Positions 2,069 to 54,272 of a stretch of DNA of 64,000 bases are shown here, piece after piece. The notes beneath the pieces are model-generated. The model was not told where the DNA came from, searched no databases, and worked only from the letters and a program-made list of their open reading frames with translations. Both the position numbers and the translations under genes were made by a program. The DNA is from Aquibium microcysteis (GTDB lineage: Bacteria > Pseudomonadota > Alphaproteobacteria > Rhizobiales > Rhizobiaceae). The stretch covers positions 1,663,001-1,727,000 of the forward strand of contig NZ_CP061080.1 of NCBI RefSeq assembly GCF_014495845.1. The letters are read 5' to 3'. Numbering within the stretch: position 1 is the stretch's first letter; every line of letters starts with the position of its first letter.

Positions 2069-2788
2069 TCACGAAGCGACGTCCCTGGCCGTCACGCCGC
2101 CGAAACGTCGGTCGCGGCCCTCGAAGGCGGCGATGGCCCCGTCGAGGTGGTCTTCGCCGAAATCCGGCCAGAAACAGTCGAGGAAGAAGAACTCCGCATA
2201 GGCGGCCTGCCACAGCAGGAAGTTCGACAGGCGCTGGTCGCCGCCCGTGCGAACGATCAGGTCCGGATCGGGCATGCCCGCGGTGTCGAGGAACGCGCCG
2301 AAGGTCTCGGCCGTCACCTGTCCCGACGAGATCTCGCCGGCCGCGGCCATGCGCGCGATCTTGGCTGCCGCGCGGGCGATCTCGTCGCGGGCGCCGTAGT
2401 TGAAGGCGATCACCAGGTTCATCGACACGTTGTCGGCCGTCAGCGCCTCTGCCTCCTCGAGCAGGAGCCTGATGTCCGGCTTGAGGCCCTTGCGCTCGCC
2501 GATCACGCGCACGCGCACGCCGTTCTGGTGCAGTTCCGCGAGGTCGCGGCGGATGAAGAGCTTCAGAAGGCCCATCAGGTCGCTGACTTCCGACGGCGGA
2601 CGCGACCAGTTCTCGGAGGAGAAGGCATAGACCGTCATCCAGCGGATGCCGCGGTCACCCACGGCCCTGACGGTGCGTCGCAGCGTTTCCACCCCCGACC
2701 GATGGCCGACGGCGCGGGGCATGCCGCGCGCCGTCGCCCAGCGACCGTTACCGTCCATGATGAAGGCGATGTGCTCGGGCTTCGGCAT
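2069..2788 (-). CDS. uppS: Isoprenyl transferase (undecaprenyl diphosphate synthase)
   Basis: Cytosolic cis-prenyltransferase that extends farnesyl diphosphate to the C55 lipid carrier for cell-wall synthesis. The 239-residue protein has the N-terminal [13 protein letters not shown] catalytic motif, the FSSENW loop, and the C-terminal PDLIVRTGG...RLSNFLLWQ and AYAE motifs, the last holding the metal-binding Glu. One small oddity is GGDQRLS where most homologues have GGE(H/Q)R. It lies between frr and cdsA with short gaps (32 and 31 bp), as expected for this conserved cluster. Confidence 0.95.
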
Positions 2789-2820
2789 GCTGTTCCTCGT
2801 GCGCGGCAGCGGACGGCCGC

Positions 2821-3381
2821 TCAGACCTGCATGATCTCCGCCTCTTTCTCGGCGAGCGCGGCGTCGATCGCCGAGATGGTCTCATCGGTCATCTTCTGGA
2901 CCTTGTCGGAGCGGCTGCGCACGTCGTCCTGCGCGAGGTCGCCGTCCTTTTCCGCCTTTTTCAGCGCGTCCATGCCGTCGCGCCGGACGTGGCGGGCGGC
3001 CACCCGCGCCTGCTCGGCATACTGGTGCGCGATCTTGACGAGTTCCTTGCGCCGCTGCTCGTTCAGTTCCGGCAGGGGGATGCGCAGCGTCGTGCCGTCC
3101 ATGATCGGGTTGAAGCCGAGGTTCGATTCGCGGATCGCCCGGTCGACGGCCCCCACCATCTGCTTGTCCCAGACCGAGACCGAAATCATGCGCGGCTCAG
3201 GCACCGAGACGTTGGCCACCTGGTTGATCGGCATCGTCGTCCCGTAGGCGTTGACCATCACCGTATCGAGCAGGTTGGACGAGGCGCGTCCGGTCCGCAG
3301 CGAGGCGAGATCGTGCTTGAAGGCGCTGACGGCGCCGTCCATGCGGCGCTGCAGATCTTTCTGGTCGTAGGCAGTACTCAT
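2821..3381 (-). CDS. frr: Ribosome recycling factor
   Basis: Splits post-termination ribosomes together with EF-G. The 186-residue length, the N-terminal long helix, the segment [16 protein letters not shown], the [14 protein letters not shown] stretch and the helical C-terminus ([10 protein letters not shown]) are typical of RRF. It lies 39 bp downstream of pyrH and directly upstream of uppS, the standard bacterial order. Confidence 0.97.
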
Positions 3382-3420
3382 CGTCTGGCTCCATGCTCGG
3401 GCCGGCAGCGGGCGAACGCG

Positions 3421-4143
3421 TCACGCATCCGCCACGGTCGTGCAGCGGCCTTGTCCTTTCAGAATCGCGCCGAATCCGCCTTGTTCGTGGATCGAATAGA
3501 CGATTATCGGAATGTTGTTTTCGCGCGCAAGCGCTATCGCCGCGGTGTCCATGATGGCCAGCCCGCGCTCGATCACCTCGGTGTGGGTCAGGCGCTCGAA
3601 GCGCACGGCGGAGGGATCCTTCTTCGGATCGGCCGAGTAGACGCCGTCGACCTGCGTGCCCTTGAACAGCGCGTCGGCACCGATCTCGGCGGCGCGCAGC
3701 GCGGCGGCCGAATCGGTGGTGAAGAACGGATTGCCCGTGCCGCCCGCGAAGATCACGACCTTGCCGGCGTTCATGTAGGCGGTGGCCTGGCGCTGCGAAA
3801 AGCTCTCGCAGAGTTCGGGCATGGCGATGGCCGACAGGACGATCGCCTCGACGCCGAGCTTGGAGAGCGAGGTCCGCAGGGCCAGCGAATTGATGACGGT
3901 GGCGAGCATCCCCATGTGATCGCCGGTGACCCGGTCGCCGCCCTTGGAGGCCACCGCCACGCCGCGGAAGATGTTGCCGCCGCCGATCACCACGCCCACC
4001 TCGACGCCCAGCGAGCGGGCTTCGGCAATGTCGGAGGCGATGCGGTCCACCACCGAGACGTCGATACCGAACCCCTGCCTGCCCATCAGCGCTTCGCCGG
4101 AAGCTTTCAGGACCACGCGGCGATACTGTGGCTTGGCGGGCAT
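3421..4143 (-). CDS. pyrH: UMP kinase
   Basis: Phosphorylates UMP to UDP; hexameric amino-acid-kinase-fold enzyme of pyrimidine synthesis. Motifs are the N-terminal VVLKASGEAL, the nucleotide loop VVIGGGNIFRG, FAGGTGNPFFTTD and the DGVYSADPKKDP segment. The start chosen is the ATG preceded by GAGGTGAAG, giving 240 residues starting MPAKPQYRR; an upstream in-frame start would add 14 residues not typical of the family. A strong hairpin lies between tsf and this gene. Confidence 0.96.
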   Translation of the reverse strand: MPAKPQYRRVVLKASGEALMGRQGFGIDVSVVDRIASDIAEARSLGVEVGVVIGGGNIFRGVAVASKGGDRVTGDHMGMLATVINSLALRTSLSKLGVEAIVLSAIAMPELCESFSQRQATAYMNAGKVVIFAGGTGNPFFTTDSAAALRAAEIGADALFKGTQVDGVYSADPKKDPSAVRFERLTHTEVIERGLAIMDTAAIALARENNIPIIVYSIHEQGGFGAILKGQGRCTTVADA

Positions 4144-47463: not shown

Positions 47464-50187
47464 CTACTTCTCCGCCGCCACCAGCCCCGCGCAGCGCTGC
47501 GCGAAGGCGCGGGTCGAGCCGTCTTCGCCCGGGGAGCCGGCCGCTGCGGCCGGGTCGAGCCACAGCCGCGCCGTCGGCGCGTCGGCCAGCAGCGCCGAGG
47601 CGCGGAGGCGGCGGTCGTAGGCGCGCACCGCCTCCGCGCCCTCAGCCAGCAGCGCGATCCGGTCGAGGGCGTGGCCGATCTCGGGAAAGACGTCGCGCCC
47701 GCCCTGCCAGCGATAGCTCGCCCGCTCCTCGGCAGGCAGGTCCTCCAGCCTCTCCACGACCGTCCCGTCGCGCCGCGCATAGACGGGACGGTTGGTGCCG
47801 ATCGCATGCAGCCGCGCCCAGGTCGCCGGCGCCACGGCGCTGTCGGCCAGCCACCCTGCCGCCGCCGCGGCCCCGTCGCGAAAGCGCATCTCGCCGGTCG
47901 TCAGATGGAGGTCGATCAGCGTGTTGACCGCAAACGCCGTCTCCAGCGTCGAATAGGCCGCGGGTTCGAAGCGGCGCGCCGCGGTCGGCAGCCCGTCGCG
48001 ATACTGCTGCGCGAAGGCCGGCTGGCGCGCATCGCCCTGCACCGCGAGCAGGAAATCGCCGCCGCGCATCGCCGCCGCGCGGTAGCGCTCCCCGCCCCGC
48101 CGTTCATGGCCGACGAGCAGGATGCGGACCAGGCCGGTCATGGCGTCGTCGTTGAGCGTCGCATGGCCGTGGTAGCGCCCCGCTTCGAGCGACTGCGGCC
48201 AGCTTCCGTCCGGGCGCTGCGTGCCGAGGACGAAGCCGAGCGCGCGGTCGACCATCATCGTCAGCCAGCGCGGCGGCGCGACGCCCCGCTCGGCGAGCAG
48301 GTCTTCGAGCGCGAAGGCGAAGAGCAGCGCCGAGGGAACGGTTCCGTCGTCGAACGTGGCATGCGCGTCGTCTGGCCGCCGGAAGTCGGCGCTGTCGCAG
48401 AGCGCTGTGCCGCCCGTCGCCTCCTGCCAGCCGCCGCCTTGGGTCTGCGCACAGGCGAGCGCCCGCCCGACGCCGAGCGCCTCGGCGGCGAGCGTCGCGC
48501 TGTCGGCCGCGCGTGCCGCGGCGACGAGACAGGCGCCGAGTTCCTGGGCCGAGCCGGGCGGCCGGGCGACGATCGCGCCCGGCGGCAGCCTGTGGTCGGA
48601 GGACGGCCGCGACACGCGTCCGCCGCCCGGGCCATCGAGCCCGCCGATCCCGTCGGCCATCAGCATGGGCAGCCCCGGCAGGATCGCCTGCTCGAGCGGC
48701 CCCACCGCGTGCACGGACTGGAAATAGTGGAACGAGGACGACGACAGGCGGTCGCTCGCCGTCGTCACCGGCGGCACGAGGGCACCGATCCGCCGCAAGA
48801 AGTCCGGTGAATGGGCGAAGCGGCGCAGCAACACCGCCGCGCCGGGATGGGCGGCGATCGCGGCGATCACGTCGTCGTCGGTCACAGCGCCCGTCTGCAG
48901 GCGCTTCAGCGACCAGACCGCCAGCTCCGGCGGTACCGACAGCCCGTGCCGGTAGGCGTCGATCGGCCGGTCGGTCACCAGCGTCCGCGTCGTGCCGGCG
49001 AGCAGCCCCAGCCTCTCGCGCGCCATCTGCTCGCCGAGCGTCGGCGCCGGGTCGAGATAGCGCTGCGCCGCGGCGAGATCCCGCGCCACCTCGACCGCGA
49101 GCACCGCCCCGCCGGCCAGGAGCAGCGCCGCCGACGCGGCCACGATGCGTCGGTCGCGATTGCCGAGCATGAAATCGCCGAGCGGCAGCCGTTCGCCCGG
49201 ACGAAACAGGCTCTTGAAGCCGATGCCGCCGAGCCAGCAGAGCGGCACGATCAGGATGAGCACCTGGTGATCGCGCAGCGGGTTGTGGGTGGACAGGAGC
49301 AGCGCCGCCGAGGCGATCCAGATCACCGGCAGCAGCAGCGACGAGCCGGGGCGCATCCGGAACGCGCCGAGCCCGAACAGGAGCGCGAAGGCGAGAGGCG
49401 CCGGTGCCAGTTTCCATGCCAGCGAGACCAGCCGCGACGGACCGCCCTGGTGCCGCAGCGCTTCAAGACCCCGCGCGTCGACATGCGTTCCGAGAAGCTG
49501 GTCGGCCGCGAACCCGCCCATGCCGGCAAGCATCGCAGCCGACACCAGGGCGCTGCCGCCGATCGCATGGGCCCACGGCGCCGGCGCATCGGCGCCGTCG
49601 CGCCGCCGGGCCTGCCAGAGCGCCGCCACCAGCGCCGGCAGCGCGATCATCGCGAAGGCCTTGGTGAACACCGCCGCCGCGAAGGCCGCCCCGGCCAGGA
49701 AGGCGAGCAACCGACGCCGCCGTCCGCCTGCCGTCGCGAGGTCGATGGAGAGCATCGCCAGCGCGATGGCCGGCAGCCCGATCAGGACCGAAACGCCGAG
49801 CTGGAGGAAGAAGCCGCAGCTCGTGAGCAGCAGCGCTGCCGTCCAGGCCGCGAAGCGGCCCTCCGCGCGCAGCACGACCCGGAACAGGCTCGTCACCAGC
49901 ACCAGCGAAAAGAGCAGCACGACGATGCGCGCGGCCGCGACCGAATGCGGGACAAGCCGGTGGACCGCGCTCAGGACGTAGGTCAGGAGCGGCGGCTGGT
50001 CGTTCCAGACCTCCCGGTAGAGGGCATGGCCTTCCGCTACCGCCGCCGCCTTGGCGAGGTTGAAGCCTTCGTCGACATGCAGGTCGTAGACCGCCCACCA
50101 GGGGCCGAGCAGCGCCAGCACGCCCGCCAGCAGCGCGGCGAGGACGACCTGCTGGAGCATCGGGCTGCTGAACATGGATGCGGGCAT
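47464..50187 (-). CDS. Fusion: GT39-like membrane glycosyltransferase + PL10-like pectate-lyase-fold domain
   Basis: 907 residues in one intact frame. Residues 1-375 are a polytopic glycosyltransferase of the PMT/ArnT type: catalytic DE at residues 39-40 in YDLHVDEGFNLAKAA, then YREVWNDQPPLLTY, followed by about ten helices. Residues ~380-530 form an extracytoplasmic region. From about residue 540 the sequence resembles family-10 pectate lyases: QTQGGGWQEATGG, RPDGSWPQSLEAG with HATLNDDAM (about 660-685), and WARLHAIGTNRPVYARRDG (about 789). This is an alpha/alpha-toroid lyase-like domain. I do not know whether it is active; the catalytic residues were not checked by alignment. The combination is unusual. 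Confidence 0.78.
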   Translation of the reverse strand: MPASMFSSPMLQQVVLAALLAGVLALLGPWWAVYDLHVDEGFNLAKAAAVAEGHALYREVWNDQPPLLTYVLSAVHRLVPHSVAAARIVVLLFSLVLVTSLFRVVLRAEGRFAAWTAALLLTSCGFFLQLGVSVLIGLPAIALAMLSIDLATAGGRRRRLLAFLAGAAFAAAVFTKAFAMIALPALVAALWQARRRDGADAPAPWAHAIGGSALVSAAMLAGMGGFAADQLLGTHVDARGLEALRHQGGPSRLVSLAWKLAPAPLAFALLFGLGAFRMRPGSSLLLPVIWIASAALLLSTHNPLRDHQVLILIVPLCWLGGIGFKSLFRPGERLPLGDFMLGNRDRRIVAASAALLLAGGAVLAVEVARDLAAAQRYLDPAPTLGEQMARERLGLLAGTTRTLVTDRPIDAYRHGLSVPPELAVWSLKRLQTGAVTDDDVIAAIAAHPGAAVLLRRFAHSPDFLRRIGALVPPVTTASDRLSSSSFHYFQSVHAVGPLEQAILPGLPMLMADGIGGLDGPGGGRVSRPSSDHRLPPGAIVARPPGSAQELGACLVAAARAADSATLAAEALGVGRALACAQTQGGGWQEATGGTALCDSADFRRPDDAHATFDDGTVPSALLFAFALEDLLAERGVAPPRWLTMMVDRALGFVLGTQRPDGSWPQSLEAGRYHGHATLNDDAMTGLVRILLVGHERRGGERYRAAAMRGGDFLLAVQGDARQPAFAQQYRDGLPTAARRFEPAAYSTLETAFAVNTLIDLHLTTGEMRFRDGAAAAAGWLADSAVAPATWARLHAIGTNRPVYARRDGTVVERLEDLPAEERASYRWQGGRDVFPEIGHALDRIALLAEGAEAVRAYDRRLRASALLADAPTARLWLDPAAAAGSPGEDGSTRAFAQRCAGLVAAEK

Positions 50188-51098: not shown

Positions 51099-51656
51099 TC
51101 AGATCGCCCACGCATCCGCCGGATAGGCCGCCACTTCGACGGGCCGGATCTCCGCGCCCAGCCCGTGGCGAAAGCGGCTGGCATGGAAGGCGAGCGGTGC
51201 TCCGTCGCTGTGTCGGCACCAGGCCACCTCGGCCACGAACAGCGCGTGGTCGGCCACCTCGATCATCCGCACCACCTCGCAGGCGAACTGCGCCAGCGCC
51301 TGCGGCAGCACGAAGAACCCGTCGCGCTCCACGAGGTCGGTCGCCCCAGGCGCTTTCAGCGCCTCGCTCGCCTGCGGCCCGCGCCCGGCCATCGCCCGTC
51401 CGGCGAAGTGGCTGCACACGGCCAGGTCCTGCGCCGCCAGCACGCTGACGGCGTAGCGCCCGGTCTCCTTCACGGCCTGGAAGGTCCGGCCGGGCATCAG
51501 CGAAACGAGCACGGTCGGCGGGCGGGTCGAGACGGTGGTGAAGCTGTTGGCCGTCATCGCCACCGGCGCCGCGTCCGGACCCAGGCTCGCCACCACGGTC
51601 ACGCCGGTGGCGAAGCGCGCCGCCGCCGCCCGGAAGGCTGCCGGGTCCGCCCGCAT
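51099..51656 (-). CDS. Flavin reductase family protein (StyB/HpaC-like)
   Basis: 185 residues. The flavin-reductase-like fold starts FATGVTVVASLGPDAAPVAMTAN; FTTVSTRPPTVLVSLMPG and CSHFAGR follow. It would supply reduced FAD/FMN to the StyA-like monooxygenase of the same operon. The start overlaps the upstream EthD stop (TGATG). Confidence 0.9.
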   Translation of the reverse strand: MRADPAAFRAAAARFATGVTVVASLGPDAAPVAMTANSFTTVSTRPPTVLVSLMPGRTFQAVKETGRYAVSVLAAQDLAVCSHFAGRAMAGRGPQASEALKAPGATDLVERDGFFVLPQALAQFACEVVRMIEVADHALFVAEVAWCRHSDGAPLAFHASRFRHGLGAEIRPVEVAAYPADAWAI

Positions 51657-51958
51657 CAGCCGGCGTCCACCGCGAAATGGCAGAGCGTGGCGCCGCGCGG
51701 CGAATAGTTCGGCACGTCCGCCGCCACCTTCGCCCCGAGCTCGGAGCCGAGCGCGGCGCCCATCGCGGCTTCATCGGCGAAATAGGCCTGGAAGATGCAG
51801 AACGGCGCCTCGCCCGGCCCCATCTGCTCGGGAAAGGCGTGGTGGCTGCGCAGCAGGCCGGGCAGCCCGGCGGCCAGCGGCAGGTGCGTTCCCTCGTAAT
51901 AGGCCTTGAAGGCCTGCGGGTCGGCGGGAGCGGGATAGAGGACGGTCAGGCAGTGCAT
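51656..51958 (-). CDS. EthD family protein
   Basis: 100 residues, dimeric alpha-beta barrel of the EthD type: MHCLTVLYPAPADPQAFKAY, THLPLAAGLPGLLRS, and AIF-like FQAYFADEAAMGAAL. EthD proteins often accompany oxygenases or degrade/shape reactive products. Between the monooxygenase and flavin reductase genes, coupled to the latter. Confidence 0.85.
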   Translation of the reverse strand: MHCLTVLYPAPADPQAFKAYYEGTHLPLAAGLPGLLRSHHAFPEQMGPGEAPFCIFQAYFADEAAMGAALGSELGAKVAADVPNYSPRGATLCHFAVDAG

Positions 51959-52033
51959 GGTCTTTTCCTTTGAGGCTCTGCGGGGTCGTGCCGCCTCCCC
52001 GCCGCCGTGGCGGCGGCGGGAGACGGTGCCCGG

Positions 52034-53284
52034 TCAGGCGGCGATGCGGCTGCGCTCGTCGATCCAGGCATGGATGCGCCGGTCGCTCGCCAGCCGGTCC
52101 CACTGCCGTTCCGGATAGTTGAAATTGTCGGTGAATTCGTCGCACAGCGCCCGGTCCTGCGCCATGGAAAAGATCAGCCGGCCCATCGCCTCCGAGGGCG
52201 GCCGCAGCATCAGATTGGTCCAGGACGAGGCCGCCAGCACCCGGTTCTCGCGCGCCCGGTCCACCGCCTCCACGAAGCGCGCGTCGAAGGCCACCGCCTC
52301 GACGATCGCCTTGCCGAGTTCGAAGGCGGCGAAGGAGGCCATGTTGGCGCCCTGCCCCATCAGCGGGTCCACCACGGCGTGCACGTCGCCGAGCGCGATC
52401 GCGAACCGGTCGCCGTCGAAGGCCACCGCGCTCCTGCGCACCGTCGGCACCACCGCGCCCTGCAGCAGGTCGAGCGGCTGCGCCAGGCCGAAGCGGTGCG
52501 TGTCGATCCGGTCGTAGGTGTGCGGATGGTGCTTCTCCAGCGTGTCGAGGATCGTCTGGCGGAACGCCGCCGGGTCGGCGTCGTGGTTCAACGAGGCGAG
52601 CCCCGCCATCTCGCCGCCGGGCACGTTCTCCATCAGGAGCGCGGTCTTCATGCCGCCGAAGGAGAGCGTCGGGATCACGATCATCTCGCCATGGCCCGGC
52701 GAGACCGACAGCGTCACGCCGCGCGGGTCGGCGCCGTCGGGGCTGCCATGGTCGACACCGTCGTAGAGCCCCACGCAGAGCAGCCGCTGCGGCTGGCTGT
52801 AGGGCGACAGTTCCGGCCGGTGCTCGAACATCCGCCCGAGCGCGCCCTTGCCGGTCGAGACCACCAGGAGGTCGAAACGCGACACCAGCGCCGGCACGTC
52901 GTCGTCCTGGATGCTGACATATTCGATGCGCCCGCCGCGATCCACGAAATCCTTCATCAGCGCCGGCAGGTAGAGCCGGTAGTCGACCGCCCGGCTCGGC
53001 CGCTCGAAGGTGCCGCGAAACAGAAGCCCGCCATCCGGAAAATTGAAGAAATGGTCGTGGTGGTGGTAGATCACCGCCGGGTCGTCCCAGTGGTTGACGC
53101 CGAGTTCGTCCTCCCGTGCGATGGTCACCGCGTGATGCGCCACCGTGTTCATCAGCCGCGACGACGCATACTGTTCCGGCGCGCGGTCGGTCAGCACCGT
53201 GGCGTCGATGCCGTTCTTCTGCAGATACAGGGCCAGGTGCAGGCCGCCGATGCCGGCGCCCACGATGCCGATAGACTTCTCCAT
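52034..53284 (-). CDS. StyA-like FAD monooxygenase (styrene/indole monooxygenase type)
   Basis: 416 residues. N-terminal Rossmann motif SIGIVGAGIGGLHLALYLQ; GDVHAVVDPLMGQGANMASF is the FAD segment of group E monooxygenases. No NAD(P)H-binding domain is seen, so it would depend on the nearby flavin reductase. Likely epoxidises styrene, indole or related aromatics, but the substrate is not known. Divergent from a LysR gene. Confidence 0.85.
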   Translation of the reverse strand: MEKSIGIVGAGIGGLHLALYLQKNGIDATVLTDRAPEQYASSRLMNTVAHHAVTIAREDELGVNHWDDPAVIYHHHDHFFNFPDGGLLFRGTFERPSRAVDYRLYLPALMKDFVDRGGRIEYVSIQDDDVPALVSRFDLLVVSTGKGALGRMFEHRPELSPYSQPQRLLCVGLYDGVDHGSPDGADPRGVTLSVSPGHGEMIVIPTLSFGGMKTALLMENVPGGEMAGLASLNHDADPAAFRQTILDTLEKHHPHTYDRIDTHRFGLAQPLDLLQGAVVPTVRRSAVAFDGDRFAIALGDVHAVVDPLMGQGANMASFAAFELGKAIVEAVAFDARFVEAVDRARENRVLAASSWTNLMLRPPSEAMGRLIFSMAQDRALCDEFTDNFNYPERQWDRLASDRRIHAWIDERSRIAA

Positions 53285-53350
53285 GTCCGTTCCTCCTCCC
53301 AGAGCATGCGCAGGCTAGACCGGCCGCGGCAGCTCGTATACGGAATGAAC

Positions 53351-53367
53351 GGAATATGACCCATTCC
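53351..53367. promoter_or_regulatory. LysR operator-like site between monooxygenase and LysR genes
   Basis: GGAAT-ATGACCC-ATTCC, a short palindrome in the 91-bp divergent spacer, close to the LysR start; compatible with T-N11-A LysR sites. Confidence 0.35.
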
Positions 53368-53375
53368 AGCGAGGA

Positions 53376-54272
53376 ATGATGGACCGCATCGACGCGCTGC
53401 AGACCTTCATCCGCGTCATGGAGGCGGGCTCCTTCACCCAGGCCGCTGACGACATGGGCCTCGGCCAGCCGGCCATCTCGAAGCGCATCGCGCTGCTGGA
53501 GGCTGAGTTCGGCTGCCGCCTCTTCGTGCGCACCACCCGCAGGGTCCGCCCGACACCGGAGGCCGACCGCGTGCTGAAGCTCGCTCGCGAGGTCGTCGCC
53601 CTCTACCAGAGCGCCGGCGCGGGTCCCGACCGCGTCGGCAAGCCCTCCGGCACGCTGCGCATGTCGGTGCCCACCTCCTTCGGCCGCCATTTCTTCGCGC
53701 CGATATTCGCCGAATATGTCCGCCGCTATCCGGACGTGCGGCTGGACGTGAACTATTCGGAGCAGTTCGCCGATCTGGTCGAGACCGGCATGGAACTCGC
53801 CATCCGCATCGGCGTGCTGAGCCCGAGCTCGCTGGTGGCGCGCCGCGTCGGCACCACGCGGCGGCTGCTCGTCGCCGCGCCGTCGCTGCTTGCCCGCCAC
53901 GCCGCGCCCATGCTGCCCGACGACCTGCGCCGCCTGCCCTGCATCACCTATTCGCGGCTGTCGCAGAAGAACCAGTGGACCTTCGAGGCCGAGACCGGCC
54001 GCCACGTCGTCGACCTCGTGCCCGCCATGACCTGCGACGATGCCGACGTCATGACGCTCGCGGCGCTGGAGGGTCTGGGCATCGCCGTCCTGCCCGACTG
54101 GTGCGCCGCCGCGCCTCTCGCCGAGGGCCGCCTCGTGCGCCTTCTGCCCGACCACCCGGTGCCGTCGCTGCCCATCCACGTCGTCTACCCCGACGCCCGC
54201 TGGCTCTCCCGCCGCGCCCAGCTCTTCCGCGACCTCCTCGTCGAGCGCGCGGACGTCTTCGCCCTGTCCTGA
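53376..54272 (+). CDS. LysR family transcriptional regulator
   Basis: 298 residues. Helix-turn-helix at residues ~18-40 (GSFTQAADDMGLGQPAISKR), then the effector domain (LRMSVPTSFGRHFFAPIFAEY, DLVETGMELAIRIG). Divergent from the StyA-like operon, which it probably controls. Ends just before the second repeat mosaic. Confidence 0.92.
   Translation: MMDRIDALQTFIRVMEAGSFTQAADDMGLGQPAISKRIALLEAEFGCRLFVRTTRRVRPTPEADRVLKLAREVVALYQSAGAGPDRVGKPSGTLRMSVPTSFGRHFFAPIFAEYVRRYPDVRLDVNYSEQFADLVETGMELAIRIGVLSPSSLVARRVGTTRRLLVAAPSLLARHAAPMLPDDLRRLPCITYSRLSQKNQWTFEAETGRHVVDLVPAMTCDDADVMTLAALEGLGIAVLPDWCAAAPLAEGRLVRLLPDHPVPSLPIHVVYPDARWLSRRAQLFRDLLVERADVFALS

Follow-up and report, generated by a model that had tools for sequence, protein, structure and literature searches.

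Can one protein chain both build and trim the same glycan? The question is raised by a gene in a stretch of 64,000 nucleotides from Aquibium microcysteis (contig NZ_CP061080.1, positions 1,663,001 to 1,727,000), called the window below. The gene encodes a membrane glycosyltransferase of the GT-C type joined to a domain resembling polysaccharide lyases of family PL10. The active-site residues of both parts are retained, and the product may be a single inner-membrane protein that both makes and cuts an acidic glycan.

A transferase and a lyase in one frame

The frame (47464-50187, minus strand) starts with ATG, runs for 907 codons with zero internal stops and sits on a single contig of 6.1 Mb. 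A first-pass annotation, made from the letters alone, had claimed this intact frame without naming its strand, and had quoted several motifs from its translation. All of them are present: DE at residues 39-40, WNDQPPLL at 61-68, DGSWPQ, HATLNDDAM and GTNRPVYARRDG. The annotation was also right in seeing a transferase and a PL10-like lyase in one chain. In profile searches of both halves, Pfam PMT_2 matched residues 63-216 (E 5.4e-10, 40.2 bits, cut-off 26.1) and Pec_lyase (PF09492) matched the C-terminal part (E 7.2e-16, 58.7 bits for the whole protein and 64 for the half, cut-off 22); the C-terminal mismatch that had been allowed for did not occur.

The N-terminal half is predicted to adopt the GT-C membrane fold. 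It is similar to enzymes of the ArnT/PMT type (Pfam PMT_2, which we take to correspond to CAZy families GT83 and GT39) in this fold, in an acidic motif past the first helix and in a small domain past the last one. Such enzymes use polyprenyl-phosphate sugars and act on the periplasmic side. Likeness to ArnT would place D39-E40 in the first loop on the periplasmic side. However, the chain is not ArnT according to NCBIfam (10.8 bits for equivalog NF009784, cut-off 567), and unlike ArnT/PMT-type enzymes it bears a C-terminal lyase. No sequence match to solved chains was observed for this half at E <=1.

In the predicted structure of the lyase half the PL10 fold is closely kept, and solved PL10 enzymes rank above other alpha/alpha toroids. 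By sequence, this half matches the solved lyases 1r76 (PelA of Azospirillum irakense, E 3.7e-12) and 1gxm (Pel10A of Cellvibrio, E 3.6e-6); its identity to solved PL10 enzymes is 20-22%. It differs from these pectate lyases in being tied to a membrane transferase and in scoring below the cut-off of the pectate lyase equivalog TIGR02474.

We aligned 23 fused chains (21 proteins and the genes L008 and L009), several of which are near-copies of each other, e.g. P0025, P0026, P0027 and L008. The transferase residues D39, E40, D63, H301 and H307 are identical in 23 of 23, and so are the lyase residues D613, D680, R738, E749, R792 and R806, which include the catalytic Asp and Arg positions that the annotation had proposed to align. 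In the alignments to the solved lyases, D613, R792 and R806 match the residues presumably numbered Asp389, Arg596 and Arg610. D680, R738 and E749 match Asp451, Arg524 and Glu535 of Pel10A. In Pel10A, roles are assigned to Asp451 (calcium binding), Arg524 (proposed base) and Glu535, and the bond cut by PL10 pectate lyases is alpha-1,4-galacturonate (review PMC10992409). One of 8 fused-or-fragment rows carries D at position 749; it is a fragment, since all 23 fused chains have E. Of 24 rows of stand-alone lyases, all have D613, D680, R738 and R792, 23 have E749 and 12 have R806. The R806 counterpart is missing from all six stand-alone PL10-like proteins L011-L016 and from 12 of the 24 rows of the wider set, and thus the chemistry of stand-alone relatives without it may differ.

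The lyase part is where the annotation had put it, with the correction that it starts near residue 495 and not at 540. Two relatives with the transferase only, L010 and P0017, stop at about residue 490 in the numbering of the window's protein, whereas stand-alone lyases begin to align near residue 495, past a signal-like N-terminus (recognised by eye). Thus the fusion is, to judge from these alignments, a complete transferase followed by a mature lyase.

Conservation and distribution of the fusion

Protein searches yielded 21 chains of 850-1000 amino acids, the window's own included, all with both Pfam domains. In one of these searches, 11 other fused chains were 41-92% identical to the window's protein over 98-100% of its length. 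The partial or broken P0007, P0013, P0015, P0044, P0053, P0064, P0065 and P0067 were left out of this count. Fused genes without internal stops are present in the window's genome, Aquibium (L002/L006), Hoeflea (L007), a marine alphaproteobacterial metagenome-assembled genome (MAG; L008) and G369, where L009 is a further, more distant fused gene from the same order. On named genome contigs three loci were confirmed, those of Aquibium, Hoeflea marina and the marine MAG; the same-genus genome G004 has the same sequence as the Aquibium contig (L002 and L006, 100%).

An artefact of assembly or gene calling that joined two separate genes would agree with some split or partial cases, as P0007 and P0065 lie on equally long contigs (102694) and P0044 and P0053 have the lyase part only. 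Nevertheless such an artefact is barely credible, given the 21 fused proteins, the stop-free genes in the five sources listed above, and five lyase-only fragments inside the fused clade, as expected of broken or cut copies. The fusion occurs in independent genomes; so the halves are not separate genes in all relatives, which the annotation had named as a sign of fusion by sequence error.

In the lyase tree the fused chains and five fragments are split from 34 stand-alone lyases (SH-aLRT 100); the position of L009, on a long branch, is unsure. In the transferase tree the fused halves and the transferase-only L010 and P0017 form one group (support 0.994), with L009 branching alongside. Between the window and Aquibium, nonsynonymous (dN) and synonymous (dS) divergence by the NG86 method is 0.151 and 0.543 for residues 1-380, and 0.112 and 0.402 for residues 541-907; as dN is below dS in both parts, both halves are constrained in this one pair. 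To judge from these comparisons, the fusion is old and kept.

Two irregularities were seen among the excluded sequences. P0007 and P0065 together resemble one fusion gene in two frames, and the transferase part of P0015 contains a stretch of unrelated residues that looks frame-shifted; either real decay or sequencing error may lie behind these cases.

Full-length matches are rare in all of the genome samples, which overlap. They were found in 3 of 394 genomes of the family (G000, G004, G816), 2 of 397 of the order (G000, G369) and 1 of 385 of the class (the window's own). Any part was matched in 10 of 394, 10 of 397 and 4 of 385, respectively; the remaining seven in the family sample are lyase only, and the order sample has one genome with the transferase only (G071) and seven with the lyase only. 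An earlier sample of relatives gave matches in 3 of 61, two of them full-length. In databases the relatives are named either 'pectate lyase' or 'glycosyltransferase family 39 protein', and both names mislead, each covering one half.

Features of the locus and its surroundings

Table 1. Positions of the fusion gene, its parts and selected residues in the window.
Feature	Position	Strand	Basis
Fusion gene, full, 907 amino acids	47464..50187	-	alignment with 22 further fused chains
GT-C glycosyltransferase part, residues 1-492 (membrane domain and small periplasmic domain, by likeness to ArnT)	48712..50187	-	
D39-E40 acidic motif, taken as first periplasmic loop	50068..50073	-	D and E in 23/23 fused chains
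Junction of the two parts, about residues 493-494	48706..48711	-	alignment of single-domain relatives
PL10-like lyase part, residues 495-907	47467..48705	-	
D613, counterpart of the Asp replaced in the 1gxo chain	48349..48351	-	alignment to solved PL10
D680, counterpart of calcium-binding Asp451 of Pel10A	48148..48150	-	alignment to solved PL10
R738, counterpart of proposed catalytic base Arg524	47974..47976	-	alignment to solved PL10
E749, counterpart of Glu535	47941..47943	-	alignment to solved PL10
R792, counterpart of Arg596 (presumed numbering)	47812..47814	-	alignment to solved PL10
R806, counterpart of Arg610 (presumed numbering)	47770..47772	-	alignment to solved PL10

The gene order around the fusion is the same as in Aquibium sp. 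ELW1220, with a uvrA-like gene (by eye) on one side and a cupin gene on the other. In the Aquibium locus L006 a GT2 gene (2734-3759) lies directly upstream on the same strand; it was not found at the equivalent place in the window's gene list. In H. marina (L007, 1783-14057) and the marine MAG (L008, 1338-9877) the fusion adjoins a conserved cluster resembling amine catabolism, with genes for an ABC transporter, a class III aminotransferase, BKACE, histone-deacetylase-like and DAO proteins (Pfam assignments on the Hoeflea genes). The transferase-only relative in G071 lies in a gene run with a GT2 gene and a GT2+GtrA gene of the polyprenyl-phosphate sugar synthase type.

Lyase-only loci were viewed in six (L020-L025) of the seven such genomes of the order sample, L024 and L025 by eye only. 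Pfam neighbours are Polysacc_synt_2, UDP-glucose dehydrogenase, a sulfotransferase and an FkbM methyltransferase in L023, Polysacc_synt_2 in L022, a carbamoyltransferase in L021 and GDSL genes in L020. The stand-alone PL10-like proteins of these surroundings (L011-L016, same order) have signal-like N-termini and are encoded near surface-polysaccharide genes. In G524, the genes L028 and L031 encode a PL10-like domain followed by RTX-like calcium-binding repeats (by eye), and these lyases are probably exported by a type I system.

Elsewhere in the window, a styrene-monooxygenase-A-like gene (Smoa_sbd), an EthD-domain gene and a flavin reductase gene stand in a row (51102-53284, minus strand) with a divergent LysR regulator (53376-54272, plus strand). 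The genes at 51102-54272 look like a two-component styrene/indole monooxygenase unit.

Possible roles of the joined active sites

A transferase of the polyprenyl type tied to a lyase of the PL10 kind, with the active sites of both intact, is most simply read as making and trimming one acidic glycan. Using a polyprenyl-phosphate carrier as donor, the GT-C half would attach a single sugar (most likely galacturonic or another uronic acid) to a glycan that is lipid-linked or lies on the surface. The PL10-like half would hang in the periplasm behind the last membrane helix, a placing suggested by likeness to ArnT, and cleave alpha-1,4-linked galacturonate-type bonds of the same glycan by calcium-assisted beta-elimination. 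Its action would limit, trim or clear the acidic chain during synthesis. The annotation had likewise proposed a shared surface glycan, and we find this supported to the extent that an inner-membrane protein with two working sites facing the periplasm, building and trimming the same acidic glycan, has about an even chance of being correct.

The galacturonic acid transferases of Rhizobium lipopolysaccharide (LPS), RgtA-D, are candidates for a system that may work alike; we know of no lyase in them. Rhizobium leguminosarum needs a polyprenyl carrier to attach galacturonic acid to its LPS, and the donor is polyprenyl-linked galacturonate (PMC2229476). A more specific proposal, which we make tentatively, is a self-editing glycosyltransferase: the chain would add galacturonic acid units from the polyprenyl carrier, and its second site would cut the oligogalacturonate made by the chain itself or a partner, so that one molecule would itself set how long a homogalacturonan-like decoration on LPS or exopolysaccharide becomes.

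Several observations weigh against one protein building and trimming the same glycan. The lyase half falls short of TIGR02474 (61.5 bits for the whole protein and 66.1 for the half, cut-off 189.8); as the Pfam cut-offs are passed and the NCBIfam ones missed, both halves are family members at the Pfam level, and the two equivalog names do not apply. Relatives by the alpha/alpha toroid fold also include epimerases and hydrolases. Loop charges alone give the topology no support (K+R 7 in loops presumed inside, 11 in those presumed outside), and the sequence yields no donor specificity. No neighbourhood is shared beyond close kin, Aquibium and the window having one place and Hoeflea and the marine MAG another, and thus the context does not name the acceptor. 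Finally, three lyase-only proteins have their branches within the fused clade (P0044, P0053 and P0067, from contigs 124, 21 and 22 kb long); hence some descendants lack the pairing or do not have it intact.

The lyase might clear instead of edit, as a safety valve for acidic polymer stranded in the periplasm, fused only for joint production and placing. This is possible, if doubtful: both active sites are kept, and stand-alone relatives sit in polysaccharide loci. A precedent is AlgL, an (alpha/alpha)5 toroid lyase that clears periplasmic alginate during synthesis, and so a uronate lyase serving the cell's own polymer; unlike the fused lyase, it is a separate protein encoded in its operon (PMC8829089). 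AlgL belongs to another family, PL5, and acts on another polymer. Moreover, persistence of the fusion at identities as low as 41% is a hint of action on a single chain, and genes for polymerising or exporting polysaccharides were not recognised next to it in the window, L006, L007, L008 and L019 (gene lists, mostly by eye). It is improbable that the lyase half lost cutting and became a glycan-binding module holding the acceptor. No activity of this half is known and its score is low against the equivalog (61.5 bits versus 189.8); however, its PL10 fold is closely kept in the prediction, and all 23 fused chains have identical residues at the six active-site positions, among them R806, which half of the stand-alone rows (12 of 24) lack. 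Still less likely is a membrane-tethered nutritional lyase degrading environmental pectin, with the transferase half incidental. Several relatives are named pectate lyase at source, and KduI matches lie above the Pfam cut-off in 4 of 4 fusion genomes (strong in G816 and G369, with 378 and 344 bits, and weak in G000 and G004, with 116 and 113), so uronate as food is conceivable, above all in G816 and G369, which also counts against the building and trimming of one glycan. On the other hand, none of the 4 fusion genomes has a GH28 match, and GH88 exceeds its cut-off in none of them, the single weaker match lying in G369 (PL1, PL9 and transporters were not searched), the window's genome has only one PL10 gene, the transferase motif is kept, and the transferase is under selection in the one pair compared. 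Feeding on pectin is thus unlikely in the window's genome.

Among the papers listed by searches of the open-licence literature aimed at such fusions (titles and abstract openings; most subscription papers lie outside it), none described a transferase-lyase fusion. The component families are known, and their conserved union in one chain with both active sites retained appears to be undescribed. If the self-editing proposal is correct, this would be, to our knowledge, the first case in which a GT-C transferase and a polysaccharide lyase are paired in this way. How long and how acidic surface glycans become is mostly attributed to polymerases, regulators and periplasmic lyases that are separate proteins. 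If one protein indeed makes and trims the same glycan, a surface coat may be built and cut back by one and the same molecule, and a single conserved chain with both sites would be a compact test case, in which either site can be mutated and the glycan read.
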